The position numbers were made by a program, and so were the translations under genes. Positions 21,875 through 64,000 of a stretch of 64,000 nucleotides of DNA are shown piece after piece. Source of the stretch: Auritidibacter sp. Marseille-P8566. Its GTDB lineage: Bacteria; Actinomycetota; Actinomycetes; Actinomycetales; Microbacteriaceae. Numbering within the stretch: the first letter of the stretch is position 1; every line of letters starts with the position of its first letter. The stretch is taken from NCBI GenBank assembly GCA_945895375.1, contig CAMDEE010000007.1:1-64000 (forward strand). The letters run 5' to 3'. Below the pieces are notes generated by a model that had not been told where the DNA came from, searched no databases, and saw only the letters and a program-made list of their open reading frames with translations.

Positions 21875-22021
21875 TTGAATCGTCCTTTTTTGAGCGGCTA
21901 TAAATCTACTTATGTAAAAGATTAGAGCAATATACGGCAATCTCCCTAGTCTTTACCAATTCGCAACCAGAACTTTATTTCCTGGCAAGAGCTAGTCTTT
22001 GGGGTATCCAGCCCCGGTTTG

Positions 22022-27082: not shown

Positions 27083-27101
27083 ATCTGGCACAATATCTAG
27101 T

Positions 27102-29812: not shown

Positions 29813-29841
29813 GGGTTCTCCTCATTTGACAATTGTGCTGA

Positions 29842-29847
29842 CATAAT
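29842..29847 (+). promoter_or_regulatory. Extended -10 of the flippase gene
   Basis: TGACATAAT (extended -10 with CATAAT at 29842-29847) precedes the ATG at 29857 by nine bases, giving a leader of about two bases. No ribosome site is present. Confidence 0.4.
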
Positions 29848-29856
29848 TAGCGGCAG

Positions 29857-37553: not shown

Positions 37554-37555
37554 GG

Positions 37556-48395: not shown

Positions 48396-48413
48396 AATGA
48401 TAGATTAGCCCAC
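48396..48413. promoter_or_regulatory. Bidirectional leaderless promoter, DUF4956/CotH
   Basis: Only 18 bases separate the two divergent start codons. On the plus strand the extended -10 TGATAGATT (48398-48406) ends seven bases before the cotH-like ATG. On the minus strand TAATCT (complement of 48402-48407) ends six bases before the DUF4956 ATG. The two -10 elements overlap in TAGATTA, so both promoters use the same base pairs and polymerase could serve only one at a time. Confidence 0.6.
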
Positions 48414-49691
48414 ATGGTTATCAACAAGGGCGTAAGAAGGCTTCTAGGGGCCTCAACAGCGTTGATTCTAGGGCTCCTAGTTTCCCCTGCACAGGCTGCA
48501 AGTACCCTCAAGTCCACTGACTTCTATAACCCCCTAAAGGTCCTCAGAATCGACCTAGATTTGCCTCAGGGCACAGTAGACGCCCTAAATGACAGAAGCC
48601 GTTACAAGATCTATGCCCCAGGCAGTGTGACTATGTCCGTGGACGGTAGAACCAGCGGCAGCGTGGAAATGGAAGTTCGCCTCAAAGGTACAACCTCGAT
48701 ATCAAGACTTAAAGACACCCCTAGCTTCAAGATCAAGTTCCCTAAGGGTCCTTCCCAGACCGGTTTCCTAGGGCTTAGAAGATTGACCCTTAACGCTCTG
48801 ACCCAAGATGGCAGCAAGATCCATGAGTATGGTGCCTATGCCCTTTTCAATGCCATGGGTATTCCAGCGTCAAAAACTGGCTGGGCAAGAGTTTATGTTA
48901 ACGGTCTTGATAAAGGGCTATACGTAAATGTTGAACAGCCTGATGAGAATTTTGCAGCGAAAAGATTCAAGGACATCACCCAGCACATTTATGAAGGTAT
49001 TGCTCTAGAAGATTTCAAGCCAGGCAATGATGATGGCGATAACCTAACTGGATCATTCCTAGCCGATCATGGTTGGAAAGTAACCGCAAACAAGAGTGAC
49101 CTAACCAAACTGATTTCGGCAGCTAACTACAAAGACCCTGCCAATTGGTATAAAGCTCTTGATGGTGTTACCGACAGAACCGGGCTACTTAAGTTCATGG
49201 CAGTTGAAAACTTCCTAGGTCACTGGGATGGATACACCGGACCACTCGTAAACAACTACTTCATTCGAAGTAATACCAGAAATAAGTTCACCTTTATTCC
49301 TTGGGGTGTTGACCAGACATTTGGTGAAAACAGGGCCACAACTAAAGACTTTGGTGACACCTTCATGACACCAATGCTTTCCAAAACTTCTACTCATCCA
49401 TGGCTTCCAAAAGAAACCGTTAGAGGCATGATGTATACCAAATGCATCGCTTATGTGCCGTGCCGCGATGCTTACCTATCTCAACTCAAAGCCGTTTCCG
49501 CTATGGCTACCAAGATGAAGCTTTCAACTTTGATGAAATCTGCTGCGACTGTGATTAAACCAACACTGGCTGCTAAAAATAATTTAGATCAGATGGAAAT
49601 GATTGCTTTGGAGCAAGCAAGAGCTCTCAAGTTCATTACTACAAGGCAAAAAGAAGTTGCTGCCTTGGTAAAGAAATACAAGATTAAATAA
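48414..49691 (+). CDS. Secreted CotH-family kinase 1
   Basis: A 425-residue CotH protein with a signal peptide (LLGASTALILGLLVSPAQAA). Motifs in order: VRLKGTTSI and PSFKIKF, LNALTQDGSKIHEY, RVYVNGLDKGLYVNVEQPD, GHWDGYTGPLVNNYF and FIPWGVDQTFG. The last two hold the acidic residues used for ATP and metal by CotH kinases, first described as spore-coat protein kinases. Here the enzyme is exported and the bacterium is not a spore former as far as seen, so the substrate is probably a surface protein. The 3' end overlaps the facing glycine-rich gene by eight bases. Confidence 0.88.
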   Translation: MVINKGVRRLLGASTALILGLLVSPAQAASTLKSTDFYNPLKVLRIDLDLPQGTVDALNDRSRYKIYAPGSVTMSVDGRTSGSVEMEVRLKGTTSISRLKDTPSFKIKFPKGPSQTGFLGLRRLTLNALTQDGSKIHEYGAYALFNAMGIPASKTGWARVYVNGLDKGLYVNVEQPDENFAAKRFKDITQHIYEGIALEDFKPGNDDGDNLTGSFLADHGWKVTANKSDLTKLISAANYKDPANWYKALDGVTDRTGLLKFMAVENFLGHWDGYTGPLVNNYFIRSNTRNKFTFIPWGVDQTFGENRATTKDFGDTFMTPMLSKTSTHPWLPKETVRGMMYTKCIAYVPCRDAYLSQLKAVSAMATKMKLSTLMKSAATVIKPTLAAKNNLDQMEMIALEQARALKFITTRQKEVAALVKKYKIK

Positions 49692-52600
49692 CTAGCACTC
49701 CAGCTAGGTTCATGGTTAGCGCTAGCATTCCAATTCCACCGATACGGTAAACCCAGCGCCACTTATGCGCCATTATCGGACGCTCTTCATCTTCATTGCC
49801 TTCACGGCCAAACATTCCCAGTAACCCTAGTAAGAACACAGGTATTGGTAGCAGCATGAATAGATACTGCGGATACTCAGGGTTACCTTGCATCCACCCT
49901 GTGATAACTCCAGCGCTGATGCTAGAAACTATCAAGGTCAAGGCAAGACCAGGAACACCCTGAGGTAACAGTCTCCATAGCCAAGGGAAGTTAGGGAACT
50001 TGTCTTGGAACCAGCTAAGGATATTAGGCAGGATGAAGATAAAGCTACCCACCCAGACTTGCCAGACGTTACCCATGAACGCAGCAGTTACAAATATGAA
50101 GAGGAACAATCTGACACCGGTTGAAATAACTTTTTGAACCTGAGATGTTGAAGGAACTTCAGTTGGGTTGATGGTGTCCAAACGCTTAGAGAAACCTCTG
50201 GCAGCTAACTCTTCGAGCAGAATACGAATTGCGATAGCAACTGCTAAGAAGATTGCAAACTCGTTGGTGTAGTTGGCAACAACAAGAGTTCTTCCAGCCA
50301 GAGCAGGAAGGGTAGCGACCATAGCTGAAACTGACCAACCAACGAAGAAGGTTAGCACCGCTATGTCGACTAAACGGTCCCAGAGATAAGCAAAACTAGT
50401 TTCAAACTGTTTTCTGATCGCTCTAAAGGCAACACCAATAAGAGCTGGACCAAAACCAAGTAATAGAACACCAAGCATCAAGCGAATATCAGAAATGTCG
50501 CTGATACCATAGATGCTAATCATTCCAATTGAGTAGATAACGGTTGCGAGCATTCCAGAGAATGCGTCAAACATACCTAGAACTGCAATCGCTAGGAACA
50601 GCTCCCATGTTGGTGGTCGAAGTTCAATAGATGGTTGCGCAAGAGCCACTGCTGCTAGAACAACACCGGTGATTGGAGCGGCTAACCACATCGAACCAAA
50701 GATAGATCGTAAATATGCTCCATCGTTCACAATCTTTGAAATCACTGGTGAGAACTTGGCAAGGCTCACTGTGAGATTGTGAGTGAAGCGATCAAGGAAA
50801 GTAAAGATCTTGAGTTTAAAGATCGGCAGCTTATCTCCCCAGCTCACCTTGGCCGTTGTGAAGGATTCCACTTCAGCATCTAGGGTAGAAATTTCTCCAT
50901 CTGATGATTCGGTGTTTTGAGAACTAGAGCCACCCTCTGAAGAGGCTGCTCTAGCTCCACCGCTAGATCCTCCTCCGCCTCCAGCTGCTGCTCCAGCTGC
51001 TGCTCCAGCCACAGCACCGGCTATAACAACGGCGGTTCCCACGGCTTCTGCTACTGCTTTTATGCCCTCTGGGCTAGCTAGTGGGTCATAAGGCTGGCTA
51101 GGAGCGTTCTCGTCGGTCTGAGCCCCTGGTGTGTCGGTTGATGGCTCAATTACTTCAGGAACCTCAGGATCAATGACCTCAGGAAGGCCATTAGGGCCTG
51201 CAATTCCGGTGAGGGTGATCTCTACTTGCTGCGGGCTCAATAAGGTTTCTTCAGCGCTTACGGCCCTTGAATAGCTACCTAGGCCTTTGCCGAATCCAGC
51301 CACCTTAGGTAGCGACATGTTAGTAATCACATCTTTACCAATAATCACAAGCCTGATCTTGTATTCACCTAGTTGGGCGATTGTGAAATCAGCAGAGTTT
51401 GCAGAGTTACCTGTAAAGGATGTTCTACCTAGGTACTGCCAAAGGGTTCCTGTTTCCATAAACGCAACGACATCAGAAGCCGCAGCCATCTCAGCACTAA
51501 CATTGATCGTTAGTCGCACAGAGGAGCCAACTTCAACCTGCTGAGTTGAAACAAGTTGTATTTGTTCATCAACACTTGAGTTACTTAGATCAGTTAGAAC
51601 TGTAACTGTTGGTGCACCTGGAGTTGGTGCATATATTCCGACTTCCTTCATTGCATTCTGAGTGTCTGCATCTAAATCTGAGAAGACTCTAGCAACAGGA
51701 TTTGGATCAAGAGATTCCGGTAACTGACCAGGAGAAACAGTAACCGTTGTTGCTTTTGTGGACTGCTCGGCTAAAGCAGAAACTATATCTTCGTATGGTC
51801 CTTTATTGCCAGCAGCATCTCTTGCCGAACCAGCGAGAAGAGTTAGACCAAATGTTCCATCGGTACAGTTATCCAAACTGACTTGGAAATACTTTCCACT
51901 ACCAATTACGTAGCCGACTTTGCAGAACTTAGCTGTGCCAGCTGCTGGAGTAAAGCTATTAGCAGTTACACCCGTGACAACCTCATCAAATCTCACATCA
52001 AAAACGTGACTGTTGCTCTGCAAGCTGCCTGGCTGTAAAACAACCGTTGCCTCGGGTGCCACATCGTCTTTGATCTCGACCTTGCCATAGATTGGAGATT
52101 GATTAGCAAATCTTGGTCCTGCGTTACCAGATGAATCCATAACGCTGTTTTGTTTTAGAGATAAACCAAAAGAGCCAGTCGAGCAGTTGGTAACTGCGAC
52201 TTGATAATTTAATCCTTCGCCGGTCAGCGAGCTGATAACACAGCCTGAGGCTGTTCCGGAAGAGAGAGCAAAACTGTCTTTAGATAGCCCTTGAACAGCT
52301 TCATTGAAGTTCACATCAAATACTTTTGTTGGCAGATCTTTCGTTGCGTTTACTAAATTGATCTTTGCTTCGGGTCCTGCCGAATCAATAACTACCGGCA
52401 CAGAACTAGTGCCAAATACCGTTGCCACAAGTGTCCCGTTGAGCTTAGATTTTGTGTCCCTTGGTGTGGCATTGAAGTAATAAATGTAAGGGGCTTTGAG
52501 TGGCTTATCCCCGGTGATTGTTACCTTGAGGCCCTGCAAAGCCGAGCCACTGAAAACAATATCCTGCTCTGCAAATGCTCGCTTGGATTTCAAGGTTAAT

Positions 52601-53523
52601 TTGTATTCAATGATGTTTGCAGATGTCGGGTTACTTCCAAGCACCTCAAGCGATTTAGCTCCTAGAACAGGAAAGTATCTAACGACGATTTTGCCTGATG
52701 AAGAAGAATCTTGATATTTACTGATAGCTACTTTTCCACCTGCTGCAGTGTTCTTTCCAGCGTTACCACCTCGGCCACCGGATTCACTTGAAGAGGCATT
52801 GAATAGCGTTCCACCTAAACCACCGACTAGGCCACCGCCACCGCCACCAGCGCCACCACCATCTTGGTTGGGGTTGCCTGCGGTTGAAGCTCCTATTCCG
52901 CCTGCCGAATTATCTGAGTAATCCGAATTGGTTGTTCCTCGTGTAGATCCGTTTGATGCAGAAGCACAACCACCGCCAGCTCCTGCACCTGCTGCGATGA
53001 ATCTCTCTTTATCGATATCAAGAACTGTTGCTGCTCCGCCACCACCGCCACCGCCAGAGGAACCAACCGGGCCAGTATTGCCACCTCGCCCACCGTTATA
53101 AATATCTCCTAATAGAGATTTACCTCCCAGGCCTCCACCTGATGAGTTTCTATTGCTGGCACCTTCTGCACCTTTTTCACCTGGGTAGAAATATAAAGTT
53201 CTGTTGGATAGGTCTGGAGATTGAATAAAAAGATATCCTGCATCGCCACCATTTGATCGCGCACAAATAGCACCATCAAGTCCACCCGCACCACCGGCAG
53301 CTCCAAAAACTTCGATTTCAATTTCGCCTAGGCCCTTAGGAACCGCAAAGGCTTTAGCTCCATCGGAATACGAATAGGTTTTTTCACAGACTTCTCCAAC
53401 AAGTGTGAAACCTGGAATGCAGTCTTCGGCGGCATGAGCTAGAGGGCTAGCTGCGAGACTAAAGCCAACGCCTAGCGAGAGTGCTAGAAAAGAGTTCGTG
53501 AGTTTCCTCAGTGCTCTGCTCAT
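49684..53523 (-). CDS. Glycine-rich surface protein fused to a polytopic membrane domain
   Basis: A 1279-residue protein. A signal peptide (1-32) leads into a glycine-rich domain (about 68-282), with G-runs, FGAAGGAGG and ERFIAAGAGAGGG, resembling the glycine-rich domains of ALK-type receptors. Two bacterial Ig-like repeats follow (about 376-475 and 485-580; VFDVNFNEAVQGL and VFDVRFDEVVTGV with paired cysteines), then a stalk rich in proline and acidic residues. A hydrophobic alanine/glycine stretch (824-848) precedes a serine-rich linker, and the last 340 residues hold about ten membrane segments. A large ectodomain fused to a multi-pass C terminus is an unusual layout; the membrane part matches no transporter I recognise. 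Confidence 0.8.
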   Translation of the reverse strand: MSRALRKLTNSFLALSLGVGFSLAASPLAHAAEDCIPGFTLVGEVCEKTYSYSDGAKAFAVPKGLGEIEIEVFGAAGGAGGLDGAICARSNGGDAGYLFIQSPDLSNRTLYFYPGEKGAEGASNRNSSGGGLGGKSLLGDIYNGGRGGNTGPVGSSGGGGGGGAATVLDIDKERFIAAGAGAGGGCASASNGSTRGTTNSDYSDNSAGGIGASTAGNPNQDGGGAGGGGGGLVGGLGGTLFNASSSESGGRGGNAGKNTAAGGKVAISKYQDSSSSGKIVVRYFPVLGAKSLEVLGSNPTSANIIEYKLTLKSKRAFAEQDIVFSGSALQGLKVTITGDKPLKAPYIYYFNATPRDTKSKLNGTLVATVFGTSSVPVVIDSAGPEAKINLVNATKDLPTKVFDVNFNEAVQGLSKDSFALSSGTASGCVISSLTGEGLNYQVAVTNCSTGSFGLSLKQNSVMDSSGNAGPRFANQSPIYGKVEIKDDVAPEATVVLQPGSLQSNSHVFDVRFDEVVTGVTANSFTPAAGTAKFCKVGYVIGSGKYFQVSLDNCTDGTFGLTLLAGSARDAAGNKGPYEDIVSALAEQSTKATTVTVSPGQLPESLDPNPVARVFSDLDADTQNAMKEVGIYAPTPGAPTVTVLTDLSNSSVDEQIQLVSTQQVEVGSSVRLTINVSAEMAAASDVVAFMETGTLWQYLGRTSFTGNSANSADFTIAQLGEYKIRLVIIGKDVITNMSLPKVAGFGKGLGSYSRAVSAEETLLSPQQVEITLTGIAGPNGLPEVIDPEVPEVIEPSTDTPGAQTDENAPSQPYDPLASPEGIKAVAEAVGTAVVIAGAVAGAAAGAAAGGGGGSSGGARAASSEGGSSSQNTESSDGEISTLDAEVESFTTAKVSWGDKLPIFKLKIFTFLDRFTHNLTVSLAKFSPVISKIVNDGAYLRSIFGSMWLAAPITGVVLAAVALAQPSIELRPPTWELFLAIAVLGMFDAFSGMLATVIYSIGMISIYGISDISDIRLMLGVLLLGFGPALIGVAFRAIRKQFETSFAYLWDRLVDIAVLTFFVGWSVSAMVATLPALAGRTLVVANYTNEFAIFLAVAIAIRILLEELAARGFSKRLDTINPTEVPSTSQVQKVISTGVRLFLFIFVTAAFMGNVWQVWVGSFIFILPNILSWFQDKFPNFPWLWRLLPQGVPGLALTLIVSSISAGVITGWMQGNPEYPQYLFMLLPIPVFLLGLLGMFGREGNEDEERPIMAHKWRWVYRIGGIGMLALTMNLAGVLVI

Positions 53524-53637
53524 CTCGAAACCTACCTCGGTGTCCGGCGTTTAATTCCCATTTTATTTCGCAGACTAGCCAGACTGACTAGAAACATACG
53601 CTTTTGCGTAATATTTTTGGTAGGAGTATGAAAATCT
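53524..53637. other. Intergenic region with a small hairpin
   Basis: Contains TACGC-AAAA-GCGTA on the minus strand, a five-pair hairpin downstream of the 53638 gene, and a short direct repeat of CTAGTC. The glycine-rich gene starts at the left end with GAGGTAGG in its leader. No clear promoter was identified. Confidence 0.3.
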
Positions 53638-54498
53638 CTATCTAACCGCGTAATCAGAGCAGGCTTTGATGACTTCATCTTTAGCGGTCGCGGTTATCTT
53701 CTCGGCATCCTTAAGGATAAGAGAGCCCACCGGTTCGGTGTTGGTAAGAGCAAAATACTGCCTAGAAAGATCAGAGAAGTTGATGAAAGCTTTCTGAAGC
53801 GAAGCGTTCCCAGCTGATTCGCCAATCACCCTAATCTCAGACAAGAAGACTGGAACATCGTCGTCTAGTTCTGGAAGGGCCAGCTCTGCATATTTATTGC
53901 AAGCTGCTCTATCGAGGGATCTGAGTGAACCGTTGAAAGCTCCAAGCGGAACAATAATTGCAAAAACTAGTAACGCAACCCCACCGTAGATAAAGTATCT
54001 TCTCTTTACTTGAGAAACAACATTGCCTGGGTTCTTAGCTGACCTAAAGACTAAAGCTGCTTTTACGTTCAAAGCGACAGCAATCGCTGTGCAAAGCAAA
54101 GCTAAGGCAAGTAGTAGAGGAGAGGTAAATCTCAATAATCGATACATAGCCTGGAAAATTTCAAAGTAACTGCGATCTTGGAAACTTAGTGCTGTTGGGA
54201 TTATTAGTAGAAAAGGGACCACTAGGAGAACGGCTGCTGGCACCAGAGCCAGATAGAACTTAACGGTGGGGCTGAGCTTGGTTGCCGATAACAGTGCGGT
54301 AACAAGATTTAGCAGGAAGAAGACAAAGTAGATAATGACAATGCTTCTAAGTGCTAGCTGATAGTCGGCATACTCTTCGCTGGCCAACACCCCTAAATAC
54401 TCAGGTAGCGGGAACCAGTAGCTGATTGGCCAGAAAACTACTGCTGAGGCCAGTGCTAAGAGCAGGCCTGCCCTGAAGTGCCTTATGCGATCTATCAC
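53638..54498 (-). CDS. Membrane protein, unknown function
   Basis: A 286-residue protein with about five membrane segments (near 10-30, 50-72, 82-105, 125-148 and 172-190) and an outside C-terminal domain of about 90 residues, with single cysteines near residues 200 and 281. Start is GTG behind AGGAG. Not recognised. It lies upstream of the glycine-rich gene on the same strand, 114 bases apart, so a shared role at the envelope is possible. Confidence 0.65.
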   Translation of the reverse strand: MIDRIRHFRAGLLLALASAVVFWPISYWFPLPEYLGVLASEEYADYQLALRSIVIIYFVFFLLNLVTALLSATKLSPTVKFYLALVPAAVLLVVPFLLIIPTALSFQDRSYFEIFQAMYRLLRFTSPLLLALALLCTAIAVALNVKAALVFRSAKNPGNVVSQVKRRYFIYGGVALLVFAIIVPLGAFNGSLRSLDRAACNKYAELALPELDDDVPVFLSEIRVIGESAGNASLQKAFINFSDLSRQYFALTNTEPVGSLILKDAEKITATAKDEVIKACSDYAVR

Positions 54499-54582
54499 GT
54501 GAATCTCCTAGGTGAACTTGAGATTAAGCCTAGCCCCGAGAATGCCCCAAAGTACCCCAAGTAAATGGCAGAATAGTTAGTG

Positions 54583-55383
54583 ATGGAAAATTTAGCAGGA
54601 AAGACGGCCTTAATCACCGGAGCGAGCTCAGGTCTAGGTGAGGCCTATGCTCTTAAATTAGCCAGCTTGGGAGTAAAGGTAATCTTGGTCGCTAGACGCG
54701 CAGATCGCCTAAGAGCTCTGGCTGATCGCATCACAGCTGAGCACGGCATCTACGCAGCTAGCGCTTTGCCAATGGATCTAAGTAGCAGAGACGCTGGTTC
54801 AACTCTTGCAAAAATCCTAAAGGGTCGTGGCATACAAGTCGACATCCTTATCAACAACGCGGGCTTTGGTCAGACCATCAAGTTCGTTGAAGAAGAGAAC
54901 AGTTTTATTGTTGATGAGCTAAATGTGAACATTCACACTCTGGTTGAACTAACTCACGCTTTCCTACCTGGCATGGTTGAGCGCAAGGACGGCATAGTAA
55001 TCAACATTGCTTCAACCGCTGCATTCCAGTCACTGCCATACATGGCTGTCTATGGGGCAACTAAGGCCTTTGTTCTATCCTTCACTGAAGCTCTATGGGG
55101 CGAAACCCAGAACAGTGGAGTCAAAGTGTTAGCCGTATGCCCAGGACCTACAGCTACTGAGTTCTTTGATTCAAACGGAACTAAACCTGCTTTAGGCAGA
55201 TTTATTCGTTCTTCCGAAGACGTGATAAACACAACCTTGAAAGCACTTGAAAAAGAGAAGTCTCCGGCCGCAGTGGTTGATGGCCTACTAAATAAACTAA
55301 CTTCTCTTTCCAGCAGGTTCTTTACCAGAAGAGCGTCAATCAAAATATCAGGCAAAGTTATGATGCCAAGAAAGAAAGACTAG
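54583..55383 (+). CDS. Short-chain dehydrogenase/reductase
   Basis: A 266-residue classical SDR. The nucleotide motif TGASSGLG lies at the N terminus, NNAG follows LDIL-type IDILI, and the catalytic serine, tyrosine and lysine are in IASTAAF and YGATK. An arginine pair after LVARR suggests NADP preference. GTG at 54580 is an alternative start three bases earlier. No ribosome site is present; CAGAAT at 54569-54574 could be a leaderless -10. Substrate unknown. Four-base 3' overlap with the facing gene. Confidence 0.87.
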   Translation: MENLAGKTALITGASSGLGEAYALKLASLGVKVILVARRADRLRALADRITAEHGIYAASALPMDLSSRDAGSTLAKILKGRGIQVDILINNAGFGQTIKFVEEENSFIVDELNVNIHTLVELTHAFLPGMVERKDGIVINIASTAAFQSLPYMAVYGATKAFVLSFTEALWGETQNSGVKVLAVCPGPTATEFFDSNGTKPALGRFIRSSEDVINTTLKALEKEKSPAAVVDGLLNKLTSLSSRFFTRRASIKISGKVMMPRKKD

Positions 55384-56915
55384 TTCTTACTTTCAATGCT
55401 GAAGGCGTTTGCTAAACCACGCCACCACGCAACATCAGGCAAATCAAATCTTTGCGAACCAACATCAGGAACGTTGATCTGCATTGTTGTTGAGCCACCA
55501 CCATCAAGCAATACAGCATCGGTTGCACCTAGCGATAGCAACCACTCACCCATTTGAGATGAGGTTGAGCCGCCCTGTCTGTATCCAAAGTCAAAGGCAT
55601 CGTAACCTCGGCTAGAAGTAATCAGCCAAACCTGTCCGTCTTGGTTCCAACCGATAGCTGATCTTGGTCTGTGTTCTTTGTTGTGTAAAGCACACACCCA
55701 TACCAACTTGCTGCCCTGCACAATTCTTGGACCGCGTCCTGCCGCGGTTATAAAAGGCGACTTGGATTCAGAGATAAATGACTTAGAAACTGTCACAATG
55801 TCACCGACTCTAAATCTTGAAGCGGTCAGAGAAGATGTGCTGCTTCTAGCTTGCAAAACATAGCCACCTGGATCAACTTTTGTGGCGATTCCGGAGCGGA
55901 CACTTCTTACAATTTGATTCCCTAGAGCATCCGGCGAAATTCTGACGGTCGTGCGACCTGCTCTAGTTGTTCCAATGAAATTTGAATCAAAAAGGGTAGC
56001 CCCGGTGGTGCTTAGATTGGCAAAGTTCACTGAGTCGAAAATAAGTGTGTTTGATTTACTGGAAATGCTTCCAGAACTGGTTACATTGTCTGCGGAAATT
56101 CTGTCTTCAAACTTAGGAATAGGCGGCAAGCTGATTCTCACAGTTGTTTTCGCCTTCATCTTGGCAATGATTGGAGCAAGATAACCCTTAACCTGAACAA
56201 CGGTGCCTGACTTGGAGGAGATTGCTGCTCCAGCTGGGTATATTTTGAAAATTTTGCCGGACTTGATCTGGAAAGTAACCTGGCCTTTAGGAGTAACTGG
56301 TCTGATGAAGTTCGATCGGTAAACAACTAGCGATGTAGCAGCTGGTTCTAGCTGGTTGACACCGGAGATGTTGAACTTTCTGGTTCCGATAGTCAAAGTG
56401 CCAGTACTTCTATAGCCCCTAGCATCGACAACCTTGTGTCTGGATAATCCAATCACACCTGATTGCCCGGGTGGAGAGTAAGTAACTTGCCCCTCCTCTA
56501 CAACAGCATTCCAAGGCCCGTTAGAGTCGAAGTAATCGCCATTTAGGCTAGCCATGGTCTTAGGGTTTGAATCAGCAAGTTGCTTTAGATTTTGTTCACG
56601 TGGAATTCCTTGGTGCAGAACGCCAAAGGTGATGTATCTGAGGTTTCCTGATACAACCGAAATCTTTGCACCCAAAGAAGATAGTGAAGCATCCCTTGCA
56701 TCGCTTCCTGGCTCAAACTGCCAAGCTCTTGCCTTGACGCCAAACCCCAGTGCTTTATCTGCCACTAAATGGTTATTGTCCAAAGCCGGAGTGTTTATGC
56801 AACCTGCCTGAGCGGCAGAAACAGGAACTGCAGTTGATAAAGCAAACAGGGTAGCGATGATGAATGCAGTAGTCTTGACCACTTTTTTTCTGGATGAATC
56901 CTGACGCTTTTTCAT
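55380..56915 (-). CDS. Secreted phosphodiester glycosidase (NAGPA family)
   Basis: A 511-residue exported protein. A basic N terminus (MKKRQDSSRKKVVK) precedes the hydrophobic signal TAFIIATLFALSTAVPVSAAQA. The C-terminal domain has ASLNGDYFDSNGPW, RPRSAIGWNQDG and DAVLLDGGGSTTMQ, the signature of the phosphodiester glycosidase family (PF09992), whose founding member uncovers mannose 6-phosphate by removing N-acetylglucosamine from a phosphodiester. In bacteria it may trim sugar-phosphate groups in wall polymers or glycoproteins. Starts behind GAAGG and diverges from the second CotH gene. Confidence 0.85.
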   Translation of the reverse strand: MKKRQDSSRKKVVKTTAFIIATLFALSTAVPVSAAQAGCINTPALDNNHLVADKALGFGVKARAWQFEPGSDARDASLSSLGAKISVVSGNLRYITFGVLHQGIPREQNLKQLADSNPKTMASLNGDYFDSNGPWNAVVEEGQVTYSPPGQSGVIGLSRHKVVDARGYRSTGTLTIGTRKFNISGVNQLEPAATSLVVYRSNFIRPVTPKGQVTFQIKSGKIFKIYPAGAAISSKSGTVVQVKGYLAPIIAKMKAKTTVRISLPPIPKFEDRISADNVTSSGSISSKSNTLIFDSVNFANLSTTGATLFDSNFIGTTRAGRTTVRISPDALGNQIVRSVRSGIATKVDPGGYVLQARSSTSSLTASRFRVGDIVTVSKSFISESKSPFITAAGRGPRIVQGSKLVWVCALHNKEHRPRSAIGWNQDGQVWLITSSRGYDAFDFGYRQGGSTSSQMGEWLLSLGATDAVLLDGGGSTTMQINVPDVGSQRFDLPDVAWWRGLANAFSIESKN

Positions 56916-56956
56916 AGAACCTTCAGACTATAACAAGTACTGGGTAGGCTTGAAAT
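56916..56956. promoter_or_regulatory. Divergent promoters, glycosidase and CotH 2
   Basis: In 41 bases both genes have their promoters. On the minus strand the extended -10 TGTTATAGT (TATAGT complementary to 56927-56932) lies 11 bases before the glycosidase ATG. On the plus strand TAGGCT (56945-56950) lies six bases before the CotH ATG at 56957, which has no ribosome site. The arrangement suggests co-regulation of the two exported enzymes. Confidence 0.5.
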
Positions 56957-58705
56957 ATGTTCACGAAGAATAAATCAAGCCTGGTTACAGCTTTTATTCT
57001 TATGTCTTTGACTGGGAGTTTGCTGAACTCCTCAGCTTCAGGGGCCGCTTCTTCCTATGTTGAAGGCACAGATGCAGCTGCCGCTATGTTCAATCCTTTG
57101 CAGGTCAATAACTTCTCATTACAAATGACTGACGAGGACTTCGAATCCTTGCGCTGGCCCAACGTAAGTTGGGATAACGAGGGTGAGTGGCTTGAGACTC
57201 GAATGAGTGTCACTCTAGCTGGAAAGCGTTATGGGCCTTACGTAGTCGGTGTTCACCTAAAGGGTGCTTGGGGATCATGGCGAGACATTTCAGGCAAGGC
57301 TGCCTTCAAAGTCAAAATGGACGCATTTGTTGAAGGTCAAACCCTTCTAGGGGTTAGCCGAATAACCCTTAACAACATGGTGCAAGATCCCAGCTACCTT
57401 AGAGAATCCATCAGCTACCGGTTATACAGGAATCTAGGTATCCCAACACCAAGAACCGGTTATGCGAACGTTAGCCTCAACGGCATTGACTATGGGTTAC
57501 ACCTAAATGTTGAAACATTGAACAAGCGGATGCTAGAGCGCTGGGGTGTCTCTAGCTCACACCTGTATAAAGGTGCTGTCCCTTACTTTCCTGATCTCAC
57601 CTCAGGCAGCGAATGGATGTTCGCCATCGAGTCTGGCAGCAAAACAGACACTTCAGATCTAACCGCATTCATAGCCATAAACGATTTAGAGGGCAAAGCG
57701 TGGTGGGATGCCATTTCGGCCCGAATGGACATGGAGCTGCTCACTCTAGGTTGGGCATCTGAGATATATAGCGGCCACTGGGACGGATACGTCAGAAACC
57801 TGAATAACTACTTTTTGAATTTTGATAAAAGCGGAAAAGTCATGATGATTCCTTGGGGCGTTGACCAAACCTGGGGAGGTGCTCTTGGATATACAGACTC
57901 TGGAGCGGCTATGCCAAACAAGTGCTGGACTTATAAACCTTGCCTAGCGCTATACAGGCAATCTCTAGCCAAGGTTTCAAGAGCCTCAAAGAGCCTCAAC
58001 CTACAGACCATGGCGAGAGAAATTGGCATCGCGATTAGATCGGACATCATCGCTGACCCTTTCGGCCCTGGCATAAACACTGCAACTAACTACCAGAACA
58101 ACCTGGTCTGGCGTATTGGAGATCAGCAGCGTGTTCTTTCATCCACGGTTCAACCTTTCGATACAACACTTGCCAGTATCAGAGTCAACGGCAAGATTTA
58201 CAATCCAGGAGAGACTATCTATCTAGCCGCAGGAACACGAACAGCAGACCTTCAGATCACTACAAGCCAAGCCTCTGCGGTGGCGGTCATTCAACCAATA
58301 GGAACCCTGAGGGATGGCCTGAACAGTGCATCCGTAGTTGTAACTTCCTCTGACAAACAACACGTCAATACAAACAAGATCCAGATTTATGTATACACAA
58401 ACCTAACTACCAAAAGCACACCGGTTTACAATAGCAATTCAACAGTTCCCACCTTCGCTGGAACTTCTAGCATTGGCCTCCTCGGGACTTCAATCATGGG
58501 TTCAACCAACTTGAAACTTGATATCAAGATGGCTAGAGCCAAGAACCAGACCATAACTAAGGCAAGATCACTTATGGCATCCCGAGTGAAGCAGCTTTTA
58601 GCTTCTCTATCAGCTCGAGGTATTAAGCCGGTAACAGTAACTCAAAATGTTGTTTCATCTGGTTCAGTGAACGCCCTGCAGATCACTGCAACTTACCAGA
58701 AGTAA
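56957..58705 (+). CDS. Secreted CotH-family kinase 2 with a cadherin-like domain
   Basis: A 582-residue protein with a signal peptide. The CotH domain (about 40-360) has VHLKGAWGSWRD and AAFKVKMD, LNNMVQDPSYLRES, NVSLNGIDYGLHLNVETL, GHWDGYVRNLNNYFL and IPWGVDQTWG, closely parallel to the first CotH protein. After about residue 395 is a cadherin-like beta-sandwich domain (TTLASIRVNGKIYNPGETIYLAAGTRTADLQI) of the same type as the repeats in the neighbouring giant proteins. A C-terminal 90 residues are unassigned. The convergent giant repeat gene lies beyond a shared terminator. Confidence 0.88.
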   Translation: MFTKNKSSLVTAFILMSLTGSLLNSSASGAASSYVEGTDAAAAMFNPLQVNNFSLQMTDEDFESLRWPNVSWDNEGEWLETRMSVTLAGKRYGPYVVGVHLKGAWGSWRDISGKAAFKVKMDAFVEGQTLLGVSRITLNNMVQDPSYLRESISYRLYRNLGIPTPRTGYANVSLNGIDYGLHLNVETLNKRMLERWGVSSSHLYKGAVPYFPDLTSGSEWMFAIESGSKTDTSDLTAFIAINDLEGKAWWDAISARMDMELLTLGWASEIYSGHWDGYVRNLNNYFLNFDKSGKVMMIPWGVDQTWGGALGYTDSGAAMPNKCWTYKPCLALYRQSLAKVSRASKSLNLQTMAREIGIAIRSDIIADPFGPGINTATNYQNNLVWRIGDQQRVLSSTVQPFDTTLASIRVNGKIYNPGETIYLAAGTRTADLQITTSQASAVAVIQPIGTLRDGLNSASVVVTSSDKQHVNTNKIQIYVYTNLTTKSTPVYNSNSTVPTFAGTSSIGLLGTSIMGSTNLKLDIKMARAKNQTITKARSLMASRVKQLLASLSARGIKPVTVTQNVVSSGSVNALQITATYQK

Positions 58706-58716
58706 TCTCCTTAAAC

Positions 58717-58748
58717 AAAGATGCCCCTGGATTACCAGGGGCATCTTT
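58717..58748. terminator. Bidirectional terminator between CotH 2 and the repeat proteins
   Basis: AAAGATGCCCCTGG (58717-58730) and CCAGGGGCATCTTT (58735-58748) form a perfect 14-pair stem with an ATTA loop, with A and T tracts on the two sides. It serves both convergent genes. Confidence 0.88.
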
Positions 58749-58757
58749 ACTGTTTGA

Positions 58758-61532
58758 TTAGTAAGAGTAGATAGTTACTGTGGTTCCCTTTTGTGACTTG
58801 GCACCAGGGATTAGCTGGTAAAGGGCAGTCTTGAAGCTGTTAGTCTTCAACGCAACAAGTAACTTCTTGGTGTTTGACGCACGAGCAGGACCTGCAGTGG
58901 TCTTGTCCTTCTTGATCAAGAAGTTGTTGCTAATGGTTACAACACCAACAGTTCCCTTGACCTTCTTTAGTCCTGCAAGAATCGCTGCGTTACCCTTTAC
59001 GTTGGTCTTCTTATCTACTGTAAGAACACCGACCTTAGGGAATGGAATCACAATAACGGTCACGAGGTTAGGAACAATCGCAGTTACTGTGTAAGCCTGA
59101 GTTGTTTCGTCTTCAGCGGTAACAGTAATTGTCAAGGTGTTAGGTCCCTTTACAAGTGAATCTCCGCCAGAAACTTCGTATGTAGCTACTGAGCTCTCTG
59201 GAACACCGTCGACTTCAGCTGAGGTTGCGCCCTTGGCCAAAAGAATCTTTGAACCAACGACAACGGCCTTTCCATTTACTAGGAAGGTCTTTAGTCTCTT
59301 GTCAGGTGAAAGGGCAACCGGAATCACGATGCTGTAGCTACCTGCTTCAGCACTTTCGTCGCCAGGAGTAACGGTAAGAGAAATGATGTTCTCACCAGTT
59401 ACAAGTCCAGCAACGTTCCAAGTGTTAGCAGCTGTCGCCTTGGTTACTGTAGCCTCGCCACCATCGAACTCAAGCTTGGTTCCGTCTCCAAGACCAATCT
59501 TTTCAGCCACAGTTGGCTCAACGAAGATGCTTGCAGTAGTTGTGCCGTTGGCTAGAGGTGTCTGAAGAGCGGCTGTTCCATCTTGACCAACAGTAAGAGT
59601 GGTTGTGTTGACCTTTACAGTCTTGAGAGTTGCGTCAGCACCACCAACGTAGACCAAAAGCTTGTAAGTCTTTGCGAATTCCAAACCTGCTTCTGGAATG
59701 ACCTGGATGTCAATCTCGTTGACACCCTTCTCCACTCCAAAGAAGCGACCAACAGTAGGAAGAAGAGTCTTGCCGTTAGCAACTACATCTGATGTAGCGC
59801 TCTCAGCCTTGACCTGAATCTTCACAGTTGTTGCTGTGATTGGAAGGTTTACGAAACCAGCTTCATTGTCTAGAAGAGCTAGATCAACAGCTTCGTCGTT
59901 TACCAGTAGTCCGCCTTCTTCAGACAGAGCATTGCTTTCGCTAATTGGAAGAACGTTTAGGTTGATTGTGTAGGTTTCGCTGTCCCCACTTGAAGCAGTA
60001 ACAGTAAGAACTAGCTCGTTGTCTCCCTCTTCGAGAGGTGTTAGACGACCGTCTCCAGCAACAGTGAATGATGCTGTCGGGTCAGTAGTTGTTACCTTCA
60101 CGTTTACTCTTGTGGTTCCGTAAGGAAGATCAATTGAATCGTTTGTAGTTGCGTCAACACCATTTACCAAGAAAAGCTCTAGTGAAGTGTCAACTGCAGC
60201 TGCAACGTTGAAGAACAATCTGTATGTTGCAACAGATGTGTCCTGAGCAGTTACCTGAACCTTAACAATGTTTCTACCAGGCACTAGAGCATCTGCTCCG
60301 ATGATCTCAACGGTAGAAAGGTTTGTGGTTGGAACTGCAGTGATGTCTACAGAAGTTACATCGCTGTCAAGTTCGAATTCGTCACCATTAGCAACTTCAC
60401 TGCCGTCGTATTCGAAAGTAGCAAGGCTAGTGTCATCGTTTGCAAGAACCTTCAATGTAACGGTTGAAGTAGTAGTGGTAGTTCCATCTTCAGCAGTTAC
60501 TACAACGGTTAGTGTGTTGTCACCTAGTTGAAGACCGTTGTTACCAGTTACATTCACTGATGCCGCTGCATCCGCAGCGATTGCTGTCACAGCAACAGCT
60601 GTAGTTCCAGCAGGAACAAAAACAGTAGTACCGTCAACGACACGAGCACCTGAAACCTTGAAGACCACTAGTGAGCTATTGCTTGAAGGGGTCTGTACGT
60701 TCAGAGTAACTGTGTAAACAGCTTCAGCCCCGCTTTGAGCAGTAACTGTTGCGGTCACTGTGTTCGCACCAGTGGTAAGTGAATTGGTTGGGCTGATCAC
60801 CACAGAAGATGTTGGATCGCTAGGTACCGCCACCACTGTCGCACCCGTAGTTCCAGGAGCTAGGTAGACTCGCCCACCATTTCTTACTGCCTGGCCGTTC
60901 ACGGTGAATGTCTCTAGTGCAACATCGCTCGAGAACGCAAGCACACGAACCTTGAAGGTGTAAACCTGAGTTGTGGTTCCATCTTCAGCGGTAACTGTTA
61001 CAGATACTGTGTTCATTCCAGTGACTAGGTTCAGTGAGCCTGCTACCAAACTTGTTGCATTTGCATCGCTAGGGACAGCTTCAACTGTTACAGCGGTTGT
61101 CAATGGTGCTACTTCGAAGGTTTGACCTGGAGTGATGGTGGAACCATTAACTTTTAGGCTTCCCAAGGTAGCGTCTGTCGAGAATTCCGGAGTCTGGGTG
61201 TTCTGGTAAACATCAACGGTGTAGGTAGCTGTGGTTACAGCATCCGAACCGGTAACAGTAACGACGATGACGTTGATTCCAGGCTGCAAGTTTGTGTCAC
61301 TTACCTGCACACTTGCAGCGATGTCAGTTGCTACTGCAGTGACAACAACTGAAGTCGTGCCAGCAGGAACCAGTATTACGTCGCCATCTTCTACCGGTGT
61401 GCCATCAATCTCAAAGGTTGACAGTGAGACGTCAACACTGGCGGCGTTGGCCGCTGGGATCCCCTGCATCGGCAGAACAATAAGTAGCGCTGCGGTTAGA
61501 ACCGTAAGCAGTTTCTTGACTGTCATATTCAT
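58758..61532 (-). CDS. Giant secreted cadherin-like repeat protein with basic C-terminal domain
   Basis: About 924 residues from the ATG at 61532, which follows AAGGGAACA; the frame is open to an ATG at 61562 that overlaps the stop of the upstream gene, but that one lacks a ribosome site. Signal peptide (KKLLTVLTAALLIVLPMQGIPAANA). Nine repeats of 80-105 residues follow, each near TFxVNGxxV...PAGTTxVxVxAxxxDxxASVxVxG...L.xGxNTxTVTVTAEDGTT...YTVxLxV; repeats 7 and 8 are longer and more diverged. The last 100 residues are lysine-rich (KKVKGTVGV, IKKDKTTAG, TKKLLVALKT) and unlike the repeats, possibly a wall-binding module. No sortase motif. Second gene of an operon with the next. Confidence 0.82.
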   Translation of the reverse strand: MNMTVKKLLTVLTAALLIVLPMQGIPAANAASVDVSLSTFEIDGTPVEDGDVILVPAGTTSVVVTAVATDIAASVQVSDTNLQPGINVIVVTVTGSDAVTTATYTVDVYQNTQTPEFSTDATLGSLKVNGSTITPGQTFEVAPLTTAVTVEAVPSDANATSLVAGSLNLVTGMNTVSVTVTAEDGTTTQVYTFKVRVLAFSSDVALETFTVNGQAVRNGGRVYLAPGTTGATVVAVPSDPTSSVVISPTNSLTTGANTVTATVTAQSGAEAVYTVTLNVQTPSSNSSLVVFKVSGARVVDGTTVFVPAGTTAVAVTAIAADAAASVNVTGNNGLQLGDNTLTVVVTAEDGTTTTTSTVTLKVLANDDTSLATFEYDGSEVANGDEFELDSDVTSVDITAVPTTNLSTVEIIGADALVPGRNIVKVQVTAQDTSVATYRLFFNVAAAVDTSLELFLVNGVDATTNDSIDLPYGTTRVNVKVTTTDPTASFTVAGDGRLTPLEEGDNELVLTVTASSGDSETYTINLNVLPISESNALSEEGGLLVNDEAVDLALLDNEAGFVNLPITATTVKIQVKAESATSDVVANGKTLLPTVGRFFGVEKGVNEIDIQVIPEAGLEFAKTYKLLVYVGGADATLKTVKVNTTTLTVGQDGTAALQTPLANGTTTASIFVEPTVAEKIGLGDGTKLEFDGGEATVTKATAANTWNVAGLVTGENIISLTVTPGDESAEAGSYSIVIPVALSPDKRLKTFLVNGKAVVVGSKILLAKGATSAEVDGVPESSVATYEVSGGDSLVKGPNTLTITVTAEDETTQAYTVTAIVPNLVTVIVIPFPKVGVLTVDKKTNVKGNAAILAGLKKVKGTVGVVTISNNFLIKKDKTTAGPARASNTKKLLVALKTNSFKTALYQLIPGAKSQKGTTVTIYSY

Positions 61533-61561
61533 TGTTCCCTTGTTTGTCTCTGCTTTTCTCA

Positions 61562-64000
61562 TTACGCTTTCACTCTCACTACGTAGCTCTGGCTTGTGCC
61601 GTCGGCCGCTATCACGGTAACTGTCACGTTGTTGAAACCAGCCTTAATGTCTCTCCCAGTAATAGTCACCGAAGCACCAGGATCGTTTGCTTCTGCTGAC
61701 ACGTGAAGCTTGGTGGTGCCCGGAAGTACGCTCAACTTGGTCTTACCTAACATGCTGATTCCCTGAATGGTGAATCGCTTCAAACTTGTGTTAGATGACA
61801 GAGCAGGAATGTTCAAGAAGAAGTTGTACTCCTGATATGACTGATCCTGAGCTCTGACAATGATCCTGGTTGATTGGAAGTCTCCTGCAGTCAGGTTCTT
61901 GAAGTTGAAGTAAGTGATTGTTGCCTTTGGATCTTCTGCTATGGCCTCTAGGTCTACAGAAGTAGTTCCTGCAGGAAGCGTTACATAAGCTCCGTTAGCT
62001 CGCTCTACTCCGTTCAACTTCAATGAAGTTACGTTCGAGTTGCTTGACGGAGCAGCCACAGTGACTTTCACTGCATAATCGCGTATAGTTGAACCATCGG
62101 CTGCGGTAACTCTAACAGTTAGAGTGTTTTCGCCAGTAATCAAGTCCTTGTTTCCAAGAATCTTGTAGGTTGCAGATTCATCATCTGTTGCCGCAACTAC
62201 TGAAACGGTGGTTGAACCAAACGGTACAGAAATACTTGGGTCAGCCGCTGTCAAGTCAATTGAAGTTGATCCAACAACTAATGACTTCAGTTTGGTGTTA
62301 CCCGGAAGTCCACCGATACGGAAGGTTACCTTGTATTCACGAGTTGCAAGGCTTGGCGCAGTAACAACGATTGTGATCAGGTTGTCACCACGAACTAGCT
62401 CGGTGTTACCTGTAACCGCGACAGTAGCATTCTCGTCATTTGTGGTTACTTCAACATCTACTTCAGTAATCTCGAAATCAGTTGTCAAGACAACATCGCC
62501 ATCAACAACTGATTCTCCGCCAACGAAGATCTCGCTTACTGAGGTATCACTTGATACCAAAACAACTACGGTTAGCTTGTAGACGAGGACATCACCGTTA
62601 GGTGCGGTCACGACTACATCAACAACGTTGCTTCCAGTTACAAGACTGTCTGCTCCGATTACGTCAACTGTTGTGTTTTCGTCTGTAGGAACAGCAACAA
62701 TCTCGATTTCTGTAGAGTTCGCTGGCATTTGAACGGTTGAGCCGTTCTGGACGTTTACACCGTTGGCAGTGAATTCTGATAGTGAAGTGTCAGCTGAGAA
62801 GGCTACATCAAGAGTAAGAGTGTAGACCTTTACTGTTACCTCATCTACCGCTGTAACAGTGATTGTTACAGTGTTTTCACCAGGCTCAAGTGCAGAGCCG
62901 CCATCAACCTCAACCTGCGCTTCTTCGTCAGTCGGAGTCGCAACGATTTCAACATCTGTTGTTCCAGTTGGGAATGAGATCTTCTGGGCGTCAACAACTG
63001 CTACACCGTTTACTGTGAAGGTCGAAAGGCTAGTAACTGCTCTGTCTCTCAAGTTCACTGTAAGGGTGTAAGTAGCGGTAGTGCCGTCTTCGGCTGTTAC
63101 AACAACAACGATCTCGCTTTGTCCGACTGGAATGTCAGCAGAACCTGTGATTTCAACAGTAGCTGCCGGGCTAGTTGCCAAGGCAACAACAGCAACGAAG
63201 TTGTTGATTCCATCTAGGTTCAAGACCGCTCCGTCAACAACTGCAACACCGTCAGCGGTGAAGGTCGCAAGGGAAGTGTCCTTTGACAGTGCTAGAACGT
63301 TTACGGTCACTGTATAAGTAGCTGTTGCACCTGAAGGAGCTGTAACCACGATAGTAATTTCGTTTGTTCCAGTCTCAAGTCCAGTTGTTCCAGTAACTTC
63401 AGTTGTCGCTTCAGCATCAGCACCAGTCGCGGTTACGAATACTTCAGTAGTACCGAATGGCACTGTTACGGTTGCACCGTCAGCCACACTCGCGCCGTTC
63501 AGTGTGATAGTTCCTAGAGCTGTGTTTGAAGAAACAGCTGCTCTAACAACATTTAGTGTGTATTCACGAGTTGTTGTGCCGTCTGCGGCAGTTACTGTAA
63601 TCACAACTTCGTTGTCACCGGTAACAAGAGCATCTTGGCCCGTTACAGCGAAGGTTGCGTCAACGTCTTCGGTAGATGCGGCAACAACTACTGAGGTAGT
63701 TACTGCAGGGACATTGAATACAAGAGCGCCTAGCGGTACTGACTGACCGTTGACTGTAACTCCAGTCAAGTTGGTGTTGTTAGAAGCTGGAACAACAACA
63801 GTAAATGTGTAGCTTGCAACTCTAGAGTTGGCAGCTGTAACGAATACTGTAACGGTGTTGTTTCCAACCTTTAGATCGGTAGCACCCTGGACACTTGTTG
63901 TAGCGTCTTTATCTTCAGCAGTTGCCTCAACTGTTACTGAGGTGGTTCCTGTGGCGACGTTAACAGTTGATCCTGCCTCTGCCAAAGTGCCGTTTACAGT
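61562..64000 (-). CDS. Giant cadherin-like repeat protein, 5' end outside the window
   Basis: At least 812 residues; the coding frame is open to the last base of the window, so the N terminus and signal peptide are missing. Nine full repeats and the end of a tenth are visible, each 80-90 residues with FTVNGxxV, GTTxVxVxA, DxxATVxVTG, L.TGxNxVxVVVTAxDGTT and YTVTV elements, the cadherin-like beta-sandwich pattern. The last repeat ends the protein directly (SQSYVVRVKA), without an anchor or basic domain. It lies upstream of the other giant repeat gene and shares a TAATG junction with that frame. Probably both proteins are made together and form surface fibres or a matrix. Confidence 0.82.
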   Translation of the reverse strand, partial: TVNGTLAEAGSTVNVATGTTSVTVEATAEDKDATTSVQGATDLKVGNNTVTVFVTAANSRVASYTFTVVVPASNNTNLTGVTVNGQSVPLGALVFNVPAVTTSVVVAASTEDVDATFAVTGQDALVTGDNEVVITVTAADGTTTREYTLNVVRAAVSSNTALGTITLNGASVADGATVTVPFGTTEVFVTATGADAEATTEVTGTTGLETGTNEITIVVTAPSGATATYTVTVNVLALSKDTSLATFTADGVAVVDGAVLNLDGINNFVAVVALATSPAATVEITGSADIPVGQSEIVVVVTAEDGTTATYTLTVNLRDRAVTSLSTFTVNGVAVVDAQKISFPTGTTDVEIVATPTDEEAQVEVDGGSALEPGENTVTITVTAVDEVTVKVYTLTLDVAFSADTSLSEFTANGVNVQNGSTVQMPANSTEIEIVAVPTDENTTVDVIGADSLVTGSNVVDVVVTAPNGDVLVYKLTVVVLVSSDTSVSEIFVGGESVVDGDVVLTTDFEITEVDVEVTTNDENATVAVTGNTELVRGDNLITIVVTAPSLATREYKVTFRIGGLPGNTKLKSLVVGSTSIDLTAADPSISVPFGSTTVSVVAATDDESATYKILGNKDLITGENTLTVRVTAADGSTIRDYAVKVTVAAPSSNSNVTSLKLNGVERANGAYVTLPAGTTSVDLEAIAEDPKATITYFNFKNLTAGDFQSTRIIVRAQDQSYQEYNFFLNIPALSSNTSLKRFTIQGISMLGKTKLSVLPGTTKLHVSAEANDPGASVTITGRDIKAGFNNVTVTVIAADGTSQSYVVRVKA

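Follow-up and report, generated by a model that had tools for sequence, protein, structure and literature searches.

Among the closest known relatives of the locus discussed here are two kinds of system. PMC7112168, in the sections drawn on here, counts CotH, a DUF4956 protein and a polyphosphate polymerase (VTC) among the accessory genes that accompany Pel clusters in Gram-positive bacteria, and gives CotH only a possible regulatory role. The others are the spore-coat CotH proteins of Bacillus, for which the source of ATP was called unanswered even in B. subtilis spores, according to the part of PMC7821199 consulted. The present locus lies in a 64,000-nucleotide stretch of DNA (hereafter the window) from contig C7 (CAMDEE010000007.1) in the 1.43 Mb genome of a freshwater actinobacterium, whose genus, apparently Rhodoluna (Microbacteriaceae), is called by that name throughout. 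It encodes two CotH proteins (CotH-A and CotH-B), a DUF4956 membrane protein, a phosphodiester glycosidase of the NAGPA type and two tandem proteins of cadherin-like repeats (Rep1 and Rep2). The core of the locus is DUF4956 together with CotH-A, while NAGPA, CotH-B and the repeat proteins are additions in one clade. The cluster is likely a surface-modification locus, whose CotH proteins carry an altered active site.

Conservation was followed in 60 genomes of the window's genus (the genus panel) and in a phylum sample of 296 genomes, in which DUF4956, VTC and CotH were counted. Pfam searches of the genus panel found CotH in 30 genomes and DUF4956 in 30, with both in 29 and neither in 29 (Fisher P 1.5e-14, a value that ignores phylogeny). 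In the sole genome with DUF4956 only (G041), a contig breaks off next to DUF4956 and its last stretch holds part of a CotH gene, and the sole genome with CotH only (G004) is 61% complete. Of the 30 DUF4956 genomes, 28 have the two genes side by side, and in three of these (G018, G041, G043) just a piece of CotH is seen where the contig stops; in the remaining two (G020, G057), the contig stops at the position of the neighbour. A NucS query covered 14 genomes, with no match in G003, G024, G029 and G053. In the nine NucS-matching genomes without CotH, the retrieved stretch contained neither DUF4956 nor CotH, and DUF1003 was found in eight of the nine. The pair looks to be present or absent as one unit at this site. 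In three Rhodoluna loci (L066, L068, L069), two tandem CotH-A-like genes lie beside DUF4956.

Across the phylum sample, DUF4956 was found in 33 genomes, VTC in 31 and CotH in 22. All genomes with VTC also have DUF4956, and DUF4956 without VTC is limited to the window's genome and G333 (a below-cut-off match); CotH without DUF4956 is represented by one partial match (G216). VTC was detected in none of the 60 genus genomes, as against 31 of the 33 DUF4956 genomes of the phylum sample. The window locus is probably a VTC-less variant or descendant of the CotH–DUF4956–VTC set; no description of the VTC-less form was found in full-text literature, mostly outside subscription journals. The AlphaFold2 model of DUF4956 has five predicted transmembrane (TM) helices and a C-terminal beta-alpha-beta-beta domain. 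With the moderate confidence of this model (pLDDT, the predicted local distance difference test, of 74.5) and no match in the PDB at E ≤ 0.001, the assignment of a function from the fold was dropped.

DUF4956 diverges from the first CotH gene, as the first-pass annotation of this DNA had read it, with a short spacer between them. Among 22 loci, the gap between the two start codons (taken from the longest open reading frames, ORFs) is exactly 18 bp in 13 and ranges from 13 to 21 bp. The motif TAGAYTA is found in 20 of the 22 spacers, L069 and L070 having no symmetric motif. It consists of overlapping −10-like hexamers on both strands, which in the 18-bp loci start 13 bases before CotH-A and 12 before DUF4956. 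The excerpt of PMC10268837 used here describes symmetric bidirectional promoters with divergent start sites 18 bp apart. Since this spacing matches the hexamer positions, the 18-bp spacer looks like a symmetric bidirectional promoter, a function that we infer from the letters of the spacer; the arrangement would imply nearly leaderless mRNAs. The chance of TA...TA at the right place in a random 18-mer is 0.8%, and no P value for conservation is attached to it, the loci being related. A general consensus promoter scan does not single out the spacer. It gave 13 sites in the region versus 17.1 in shuffles, and its best site, over the spacer on the minus strand (48424–48397), has a different −10 hexamer, with no plus-strand site there.

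From left to right, the cluster reads DUF4956 (−), CotH-A (+), a glycine-rich Big_12 protein with multiple TM segments (−), a small TM protein (−), a short-chain dehydrogenase of the SDR type (+), NAGPA (−), CotH-B (+), Rep1 (−) and Rep2 (−). All the genes named in the first-pass annotation (the CotHs, NAGPA, the glycine-rich protein, both repeat proteins and DUF4956) were recovered at or next to the positions that it gave, by ORF and Pfam analysis; the small TM protein and the SDR are two further genes that it had not named. The gene order CotH-A, small TM protein, NAGPA, CotH-B, Rep1, Rep2, called arrangement I, is shared by one group of 13 genomes, some of whose 14 clusters are divided between two contigs. 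NAGPA is divergent from CotH-B in all 12 testable loci, Rep1 adjoins CotH-B in 11 of 12, and the small TM protein is present in most arrangement I loci, L038 being without it. Elsewhere in the genus, CotH-A is accompanied by a longer CotH (type C), a DUF3048 lipoprotein, an MFS-like protein, a CDP-glycerol-transferase-like protein and GH16, the last two of them in arrangement II, or by none of these. Outside arrangement I, NAGPA, where present, sits elsewhere in the genome. One genome (G011, contigs C9 and C25) holds two divergent copies of the cluster (L034, L035), with CotH-A 75% and 57% identical to that of the window, which may reflect a mixed bin (5% contamination).

The glycosidase assignment is based on PF09992 (70.1 bits, cut-off 25); 3ohg and the NAGPA entries 6pku and 6pky also match, weakly (E 0.02). 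L470, D471, G472, G473, S475 and T476 are invariant in 13 aligned genus sequences. A strong subtype, delimited at E<1e-13 by a cut set post hoc, after the table was seen, is present in 25 of 30 CotH-positive and in none of 30 CotH-negative genomes. It is found in 24 of 26 genomes with at least two CotH matches, one of four with a single match and none of the 30 without, where match numbers also count fragments of broken genes. When the weak subtype is included, the counts become 26/30 and 3/30 (G002, G037, G050). The cadherin-like repeats follow the same direction (17/30 CotH-positive versus 3/30 CotH-negative genomes).

CotH-B itself shares a domain with the repeat proteins. A hidden Markov model (HMM), built from 15 Rep1/Rep2 repeats of the window only and run against 430 ORFs, detects one such domain near the C-terminus of CotH-B, where the first-pass annotation had seen it. 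Of 13 CotH-B orthologs, 12 have the domain at the corresponding position, L043 being the exception, and among the 430 ORFs no CotH-A and no type C CotH was matched. Rep1 and Rep2 also score with PF12733 (112 and 118.8 bits, cut-off 24.2), while the CotH-B domain is recognized by the purpose-built HMM only. In its AlphaFold2 model (pLDDT 91.9), CotH-B is predicted to consist of a CotH fold (residues ~40–398), the cadherin-like domain and an OmpA-like, wall-anchor-like fold. The modelled CotH domain superimposes on 5jd9 with Z 35.9 and a root-mean-square deviation of 2.6 Å over 334 residues, followed by PI4K-, HipA- and Fam20-type kinases at Z ~10–12; residues 477–582 match the OmpA-like 3td3 (Z 10.8 over 106 residues; Foldseek E 1.5e-4). 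CotH-A belongs to the CotH family by sequence (Pfam and the 5jd9 match). The domain anatomy of CotH-B gives the docking idea a structural basis, and CotH-B may dock onto Rep1 and Rep2 through the shared domain. CotH-B and Rep1 have C-terminal tails of similar topology by eye, for which no homology is claimed, as hhalign gave a probability of 2.9% and E 0.016 (13 CotH-B and 12 Rep1 rows, one of the 13, L067_7, being no CotH-B ortholog). The Rep2 stop and the Rep1 start overlap by one base (window 61562) in all six loci showing both, which suggests coupled translation of the two repeat proteins.

The scheme that most likely accounts for these features is as follows. DUF4956 in the membrane and an exported CotH-A would share a single symmetric promoter and be transcribed from it in opposite directions; CotH-B, a divergent NAGPA, membrane proteins and the tandem cadherin-like repeat proteins would have joined this core in one clade of Rhodoluna. 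The OmpA-like fold would hold CotH-B at the wall, where it could meet the repeat proteins via its own copy of their domain. The CotH proteins would then pass phosphate to a surface protein or glycan, DUF4956 would serve them from the membrane, and NAGPA would cleave sugar-phosphate diester links in the same surface material. Export is suggested by signal peptides recognized by eye, with no predictor, in CotH-A, CotH-B, NAGPA, the glycine-rich protein and Rep1. The functional frame of this scheme, in which wall-anchored and repeat-docked CotH proteins, DUF4956 and NAGPA modify the cell surface, is in our estimate evenly balanced between being right and wrong; true protein phosphorylation by the CotH proteins is less likely than that frame.

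Several results count against the scheme. To begin with, the genes do not form a single inseparable unit: accessory members can be found apart both from the core and from one another. Two of them, the glycine-rich protein and the SDR, are optional and missing from L035, L036, L037 and L042. DUF4956 and CotH occur without a NAGPA match in G022, G032, G042 and G057 (62, 80, 97 and 72% complete), and the repeats occur without CotH in G012, G027 and G059. G033 (L038) has repeats with no CotH-B alongside, and G021 (79% complete) has CotH-B with no repeat match. The number of evolutionary events is small as well. On an rpoB tree of 39 of the 60 genomes, CotH, DUF4956 and strong NAGPA change state five times each. 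Four independent pairs of genomes differ in CotH; DUF4956 and NAGPA differ in the same way in about three and never in the opposite way, one pair being without difference, which is not significant. For the repeats, 2.4 of the four pairs agree with CotH and 0.1 run against it. This pattern is consistent with linkage, and four pairs cannot reach significance. Of the 41 genomes with an rpoB match, a weak split match (G029) and a 131-residue piece (G009) were excluded; 11 rows cover less than half of the columns, incomplete genomes and short pieces add noise, and G041 was coded CotH-negative despite its CotH fragment, recognized later. Furthermore, no Ser/Lys/Arg-rich stretch of the CotB/CotG type was seen in the repeat proteins, as judged by composition without a B. 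subtilis yardstick: the top S+K+R share per 40-residue stretch is 0.30 in Rep1 and 0.28 in Rep2, with a maximum of 0.40 (NAGPA) among seven cluster proteins. Finally, we know of no extracellular phosphate donor. The observations of the first-pass annotation are thus confirmed and its interpretation is partly supported. The gene set that it listed keeps its order in one Rhodoluna clade and comes apart elsewhere in the genus; with phylogeny considered, the co-occurrence rests on some five changes of state and falls short of significance. The linked surface system that it envisaged is favoured by the tracking of CotH by NAGPA and by the domains of CotH-B, and disfavoured by the genomes in which the pieces occur independently.

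The CotH active site adds to these points. CotH-A carries W297-G298-x-D300 where W-D-x-D is expected. In an alignment of 54 genus proteins longer than 330 aa from 40 stretches (compared with 92 CotH matches in the genus panel), the metal-binding, DFG-type Asp, equivalent to D184 of protein kinase A (PKA), is Gly in 54/54. The consulted portion of PMC12189002 names the CotH equivalents of PKA D166, N171 and D184, plus the adenine-flanking Tyr142 and Trp245. The B. cereus motif is W245-D246-Y247-D248 (entry numbering), and D223 to D246 span 23 residues, as do D228 to D251 in B. subtilis, a spacing on which the equation of D251 with the Gly column rests. B. subtilis CotH requires both D228 and D251, the D251A variant being inactive according to the part of PMC7821199 available. 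The Tyr142 column holds Glu in 39, Lys in 13 and Ser in 2 of the 54 (from the alignment only), with the Tyr beside it kept in 53. Gly in place of the metal-binding Asp puts the catalysis envisaged above in doubt, and the premise of extracellular kinases with which the first-pass annotation started is weakened. The remainder of the site is retained: the catalytic Asp and Asn (D272/N281 in CotH-A, equivalent to D223 and N228 of B. cereus; the D228 position of B. subtilis for the Asp) are kept in 54/54, as is the D248 equivalent, Lys and a Glu in nearly all or all, and the Trp (W245) in 53.

In the phylum sample, 27 of 34 CotH matches were used and counted by eye; 23 have a regular motif with Asp at the first position and Asp (9) or Asn (14) at the second. 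The other four are irregular, being second CotH domains or fragments from genomes with several CotHs; three have Asp and one has Ser in this column, and all lack the Trp. WGxD was seen in none of the 27. A scan of named records used a pattern that contained PWGxDQ, so that the WGxD content of its matches is by selection; the best 80 of 111 confirmed relatives were taken, giving 76 loci. Record titles include Aurantimicrobium, Nanopelagicales, Ilumatobacteraceae, Verrucomicrobiota and Myxococcales/Sorangium. Within an alignment of 48 of these CotH proteins, partly from Rhodoluna and otherwise from several phyla, Lys is kept in 48, Glu in 47, Asp in 46 and Asn in 46, and one has Asp in the Gly column. 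Judging from their sequences, the WGxD CotH proteins appear to be a subfamily whose site is altered yet under constraint. Their metal ligand may have moved, their donor may be a different one, or they may be conserved pseudokinases. That the metal Asp is lost without exception, with the remainder of the active site retained, poses a clear puzzle for biochemistry. One WGxD record (L205) is titled as a Klebsiella pneumoniae metagenome-assembled genome, perhaps a mislabelled bin, titles elsewhere being mostly actinobacterial and myxobacterial.

The alternatives to be weighed overlap with the surface-modification scheme, and the confidences given to them do not add up to one. The WGxD CotH proteins could be pseudokinases that keep the fold, perhaps bind a ligand and act as wall-anchored scaffolds or adaptors for the repeat proteins with no phosphotransfer. 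The invariant Gly, set against Asp in 23 of 27 phylum-sample domains, the Glu or Lys aligned with Tyr142 (52/54), the inactivity of D251A and the two extra binding-type domains of CotH-B all speak for such a role. However, the (nearly) invariant catalytic Asp, Asn, Lys and Glu go beyond the needs of a pure scaffold, and the Asp two residues beyond the Gly, variable between Asp and Asn in the 23 WD-type domains, is fixed in 54/54, which suggests a moved metal ligand; the pseudokinase role is possible and, on balance, doubtful. The substrate of the CotH proteins could instead be a glycan (a capsule, a teichoic-acid-like polymer or a protein-linked sugar) rather than the repeat proteins, with NAGPA trimming the same polymer. 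Fam20B, for example, phosphorylates xylose, and the NAGPA family acts on sugar phosphodiesters. Arrangement II has a GH16 enzyme and a below-cut-off CDP-glycerol phosphotransferase match near CotH-A, and genes resembling those of glycan synthesis were seen by eye at ~27–39 kb of the window. The place of CotH, DUF4956 and polyphosphate polymerase among the Pel accessories, as given in the consulted part of PMC7112168, points in the same direction. Against this, no glycan-synthesis gene was recognized within the cluster. A glycan target is a tentative, minority view.

It is also conceivable, and rather unlikely, that the functional link is confined to DUF4956 and CotH-A, with NAGPA, CotH-B and the repeats having settled nearby in one clade and been kept by inheritance. 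On the rpoB tree, the arrangement I genomes included (eight, another five being without an rpoB row) do group with G041 in a single clade (support 82); the glycine-rich protein, SDR, CotH-B and repeats vary, and repeats occur without CotH. Nevertheless, the gene order holds while CotH-A identity drops to ~42% (L043), NAGPA co-occurs with CotH even where unlinked (e.g., G008, G013, G034), and the repeat domain is common to CotH-B and the Rep proteins.

A bolder extension of the surface-modification scheme, which we consider improbable, is that the WGxD CotH proteins represent exported kinases of a subfamily that is widespread, mostly in aquatic bacteria, and has a remodelled phosphate-donor site. 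They would dispense with the usual Asp-Mg-ATP arrangement and perhaps use polyphosphate or another exported donor via DUF4956. The donor could come from VTC in VTC-bearing relatives and from PPK1 (54/60 genomes) in Rhodoluna. If true, this would explain the phosphate source of an extracellular kinase. In other aquatic actinobacteria (L170, L180, L182, L192), the gene for a WGxD CotH comes first and those for DUF4956 and a VTC protein come after it in the same direction, VTC being identified by Pfam in L170, L182 and L192 and by likeness in L180. An origin of WGxD at the time when VTC was lost was rejected, as WGxD CotH proteins adjoin VTC in L170, L182 and L192; a tracking of CotH by PPK1 was likewise rejected, as PPK1 is present in CotH-positive and CotH-negative genomes alike. 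Proteins of 3145 and 3211 aa are encoded beside the operons of L170 and L182; that of L182 has RCC1 and fn3 repeats, with a lamin-tail-domain (LTD) protein alongside (Pfam on L182 only). Giant neighbours as a general trait of CotH were not retained: another ORF of at least 1000 aa lies within 3 kb in 8 of 32 loci outside the recognized Rhodoluna ones, an uncontrolled count of which only L170 and L182 were used, and GC-rich loci give spurious ORFs.

The CotH–DUF4956–polyphosphate polymerase set recurs in Gram-positives, and Rhodoluna provides a natural simplification of it, with VTC gone and a tight divergent pair kept. The locus makes two matters testable, namely the role of DUF4956 for CotH and the supply of phosphate to a kinase outside the cytoplasm. 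Gene inactivation has been published in a naturally transformable Rhodoluna species, as stated in the consulted section of PMC11577799.

Table 1. Features of the CotH cluster, with positions in the window.
Feature	Position	Strand	Basis
DUF4956 membrane protein; constant neighbour of CotH-A	47838..48395	−	PF16316, 6.2e-33
Spacer of 18 bp between divergent start codons, with TAGATTA; putative bidirectional promoter	48396..48413	.	Sequence
CotH-A, CotH-fold, 425 aa; exported by eye	48414..49691	+	PF08757, 7.5e-37; 5jd9 sequence match, E 1.9e-7
Glycine-rich Big_12 protein, C-terminal multi-TM, 1279 aa; variable component	49684..53523	−	PF19078; hydropathy
Small membrane protein, ~five TM segments, 286 aa	53638..54498	−	Hydropathy
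SDR-type short-chain dehydrogenase	54580..55383	+	Reading of the sequence only
NAGPA-type phosphodiester glycosidase, 511 aa	55380..56915	−	PF09992, 3.5e-19
CotH-B, 582 aa	56957..58705	+	PF08757, 4.9e-30
CotH-B cadherin-like repeat domain, residues 402–479	58160..58393	+	Repeat HMM, E 3e-9
CotH-B OmpA-like C-terminal fold (predicted), residues 482–581	58400..58699	+	Model and fold comparison
Terminator-like hairpin, 14-bp stem, between convergent CotH-B and Rep1	58717..58748	.	Sequence scan
Rep1, cadherin-like repeat protein, 934 aa	58758..61562	−	PF12733, 7 stretches; 8 domains by repeat HMM
Rep2, cadherin-like repeat protein, incomplete	61562..64000	−	PF12733, 8 stretches; 10 domains by repeat HMM

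As for the remaining features, neither Pfam nor NCBIfam matched the small TM protein at E values up to 0.1, and the SDR is probably an optional passenger. Terminator-like hairpins are not in excess in the region (17 versus 16.1 in shuffles). The 5′ end of Rep2 lies past the contig, the frame being open up to the contig end at C7:64621, 621 bases beyond the window. A third CotH of the genome sits away from the cluster (C1:97407–98231), and more cadherin-like repeat proteins are encoded at a distance from it (window 18674–21940; G000 C1:274609–281333). Window positions ~27045–39073 resemble, by eye, a surface polysaccharide-type region with NeuB-like and NeuA-like sugar genes, flippase-like and polymerase-like proteins, glycosyltransferases, a polyprenyl glycosylphosphotransferase and a tyrosine-kinase chain regulator.

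When placed beside known systems, the locus shares with the Pel accessory set, as far as the part of PMC7112168 consulted describes it, a CotH gene adjoining DUF4956; compared on these genes alone, the Rhodoluna version is without VTC, its pair is divergent, and NAGPA and repeat proteins are added. The operons of the other aquatic actinobacteria likewise have a WGxD CotH beside DUF4956 and, in L170 and L182, a protein of more than 3000 aa. They differ in having VTC, co-directional genes and an LTD protein, in whose place Rhodoluna has NAGPA and cadherin-like repeats. With the Bacillus spore-coat CotH (5jd9/5jda), the predicted fold, the catalytic Asp, the Asn and the adenine Trp are held in common, as is a position next to proteins that may form a surface layer. 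The Rhodoluna proteins depart from it in that an export signal is visible by eye at their N-terminus, Gly replaces the D184-type Asp and the Tyr142 position looks altered in the alignment; CotH-B has its extra cadherin-like and OmpA-like domains, and by composition no CotB/CotG-like substrate was seen. Finally, the glycosidase shares the PF09992 domain and the LDGGGST core with the NAGPA uncovering enzyme, of which it represents a bacterial, probably exported counterpart.

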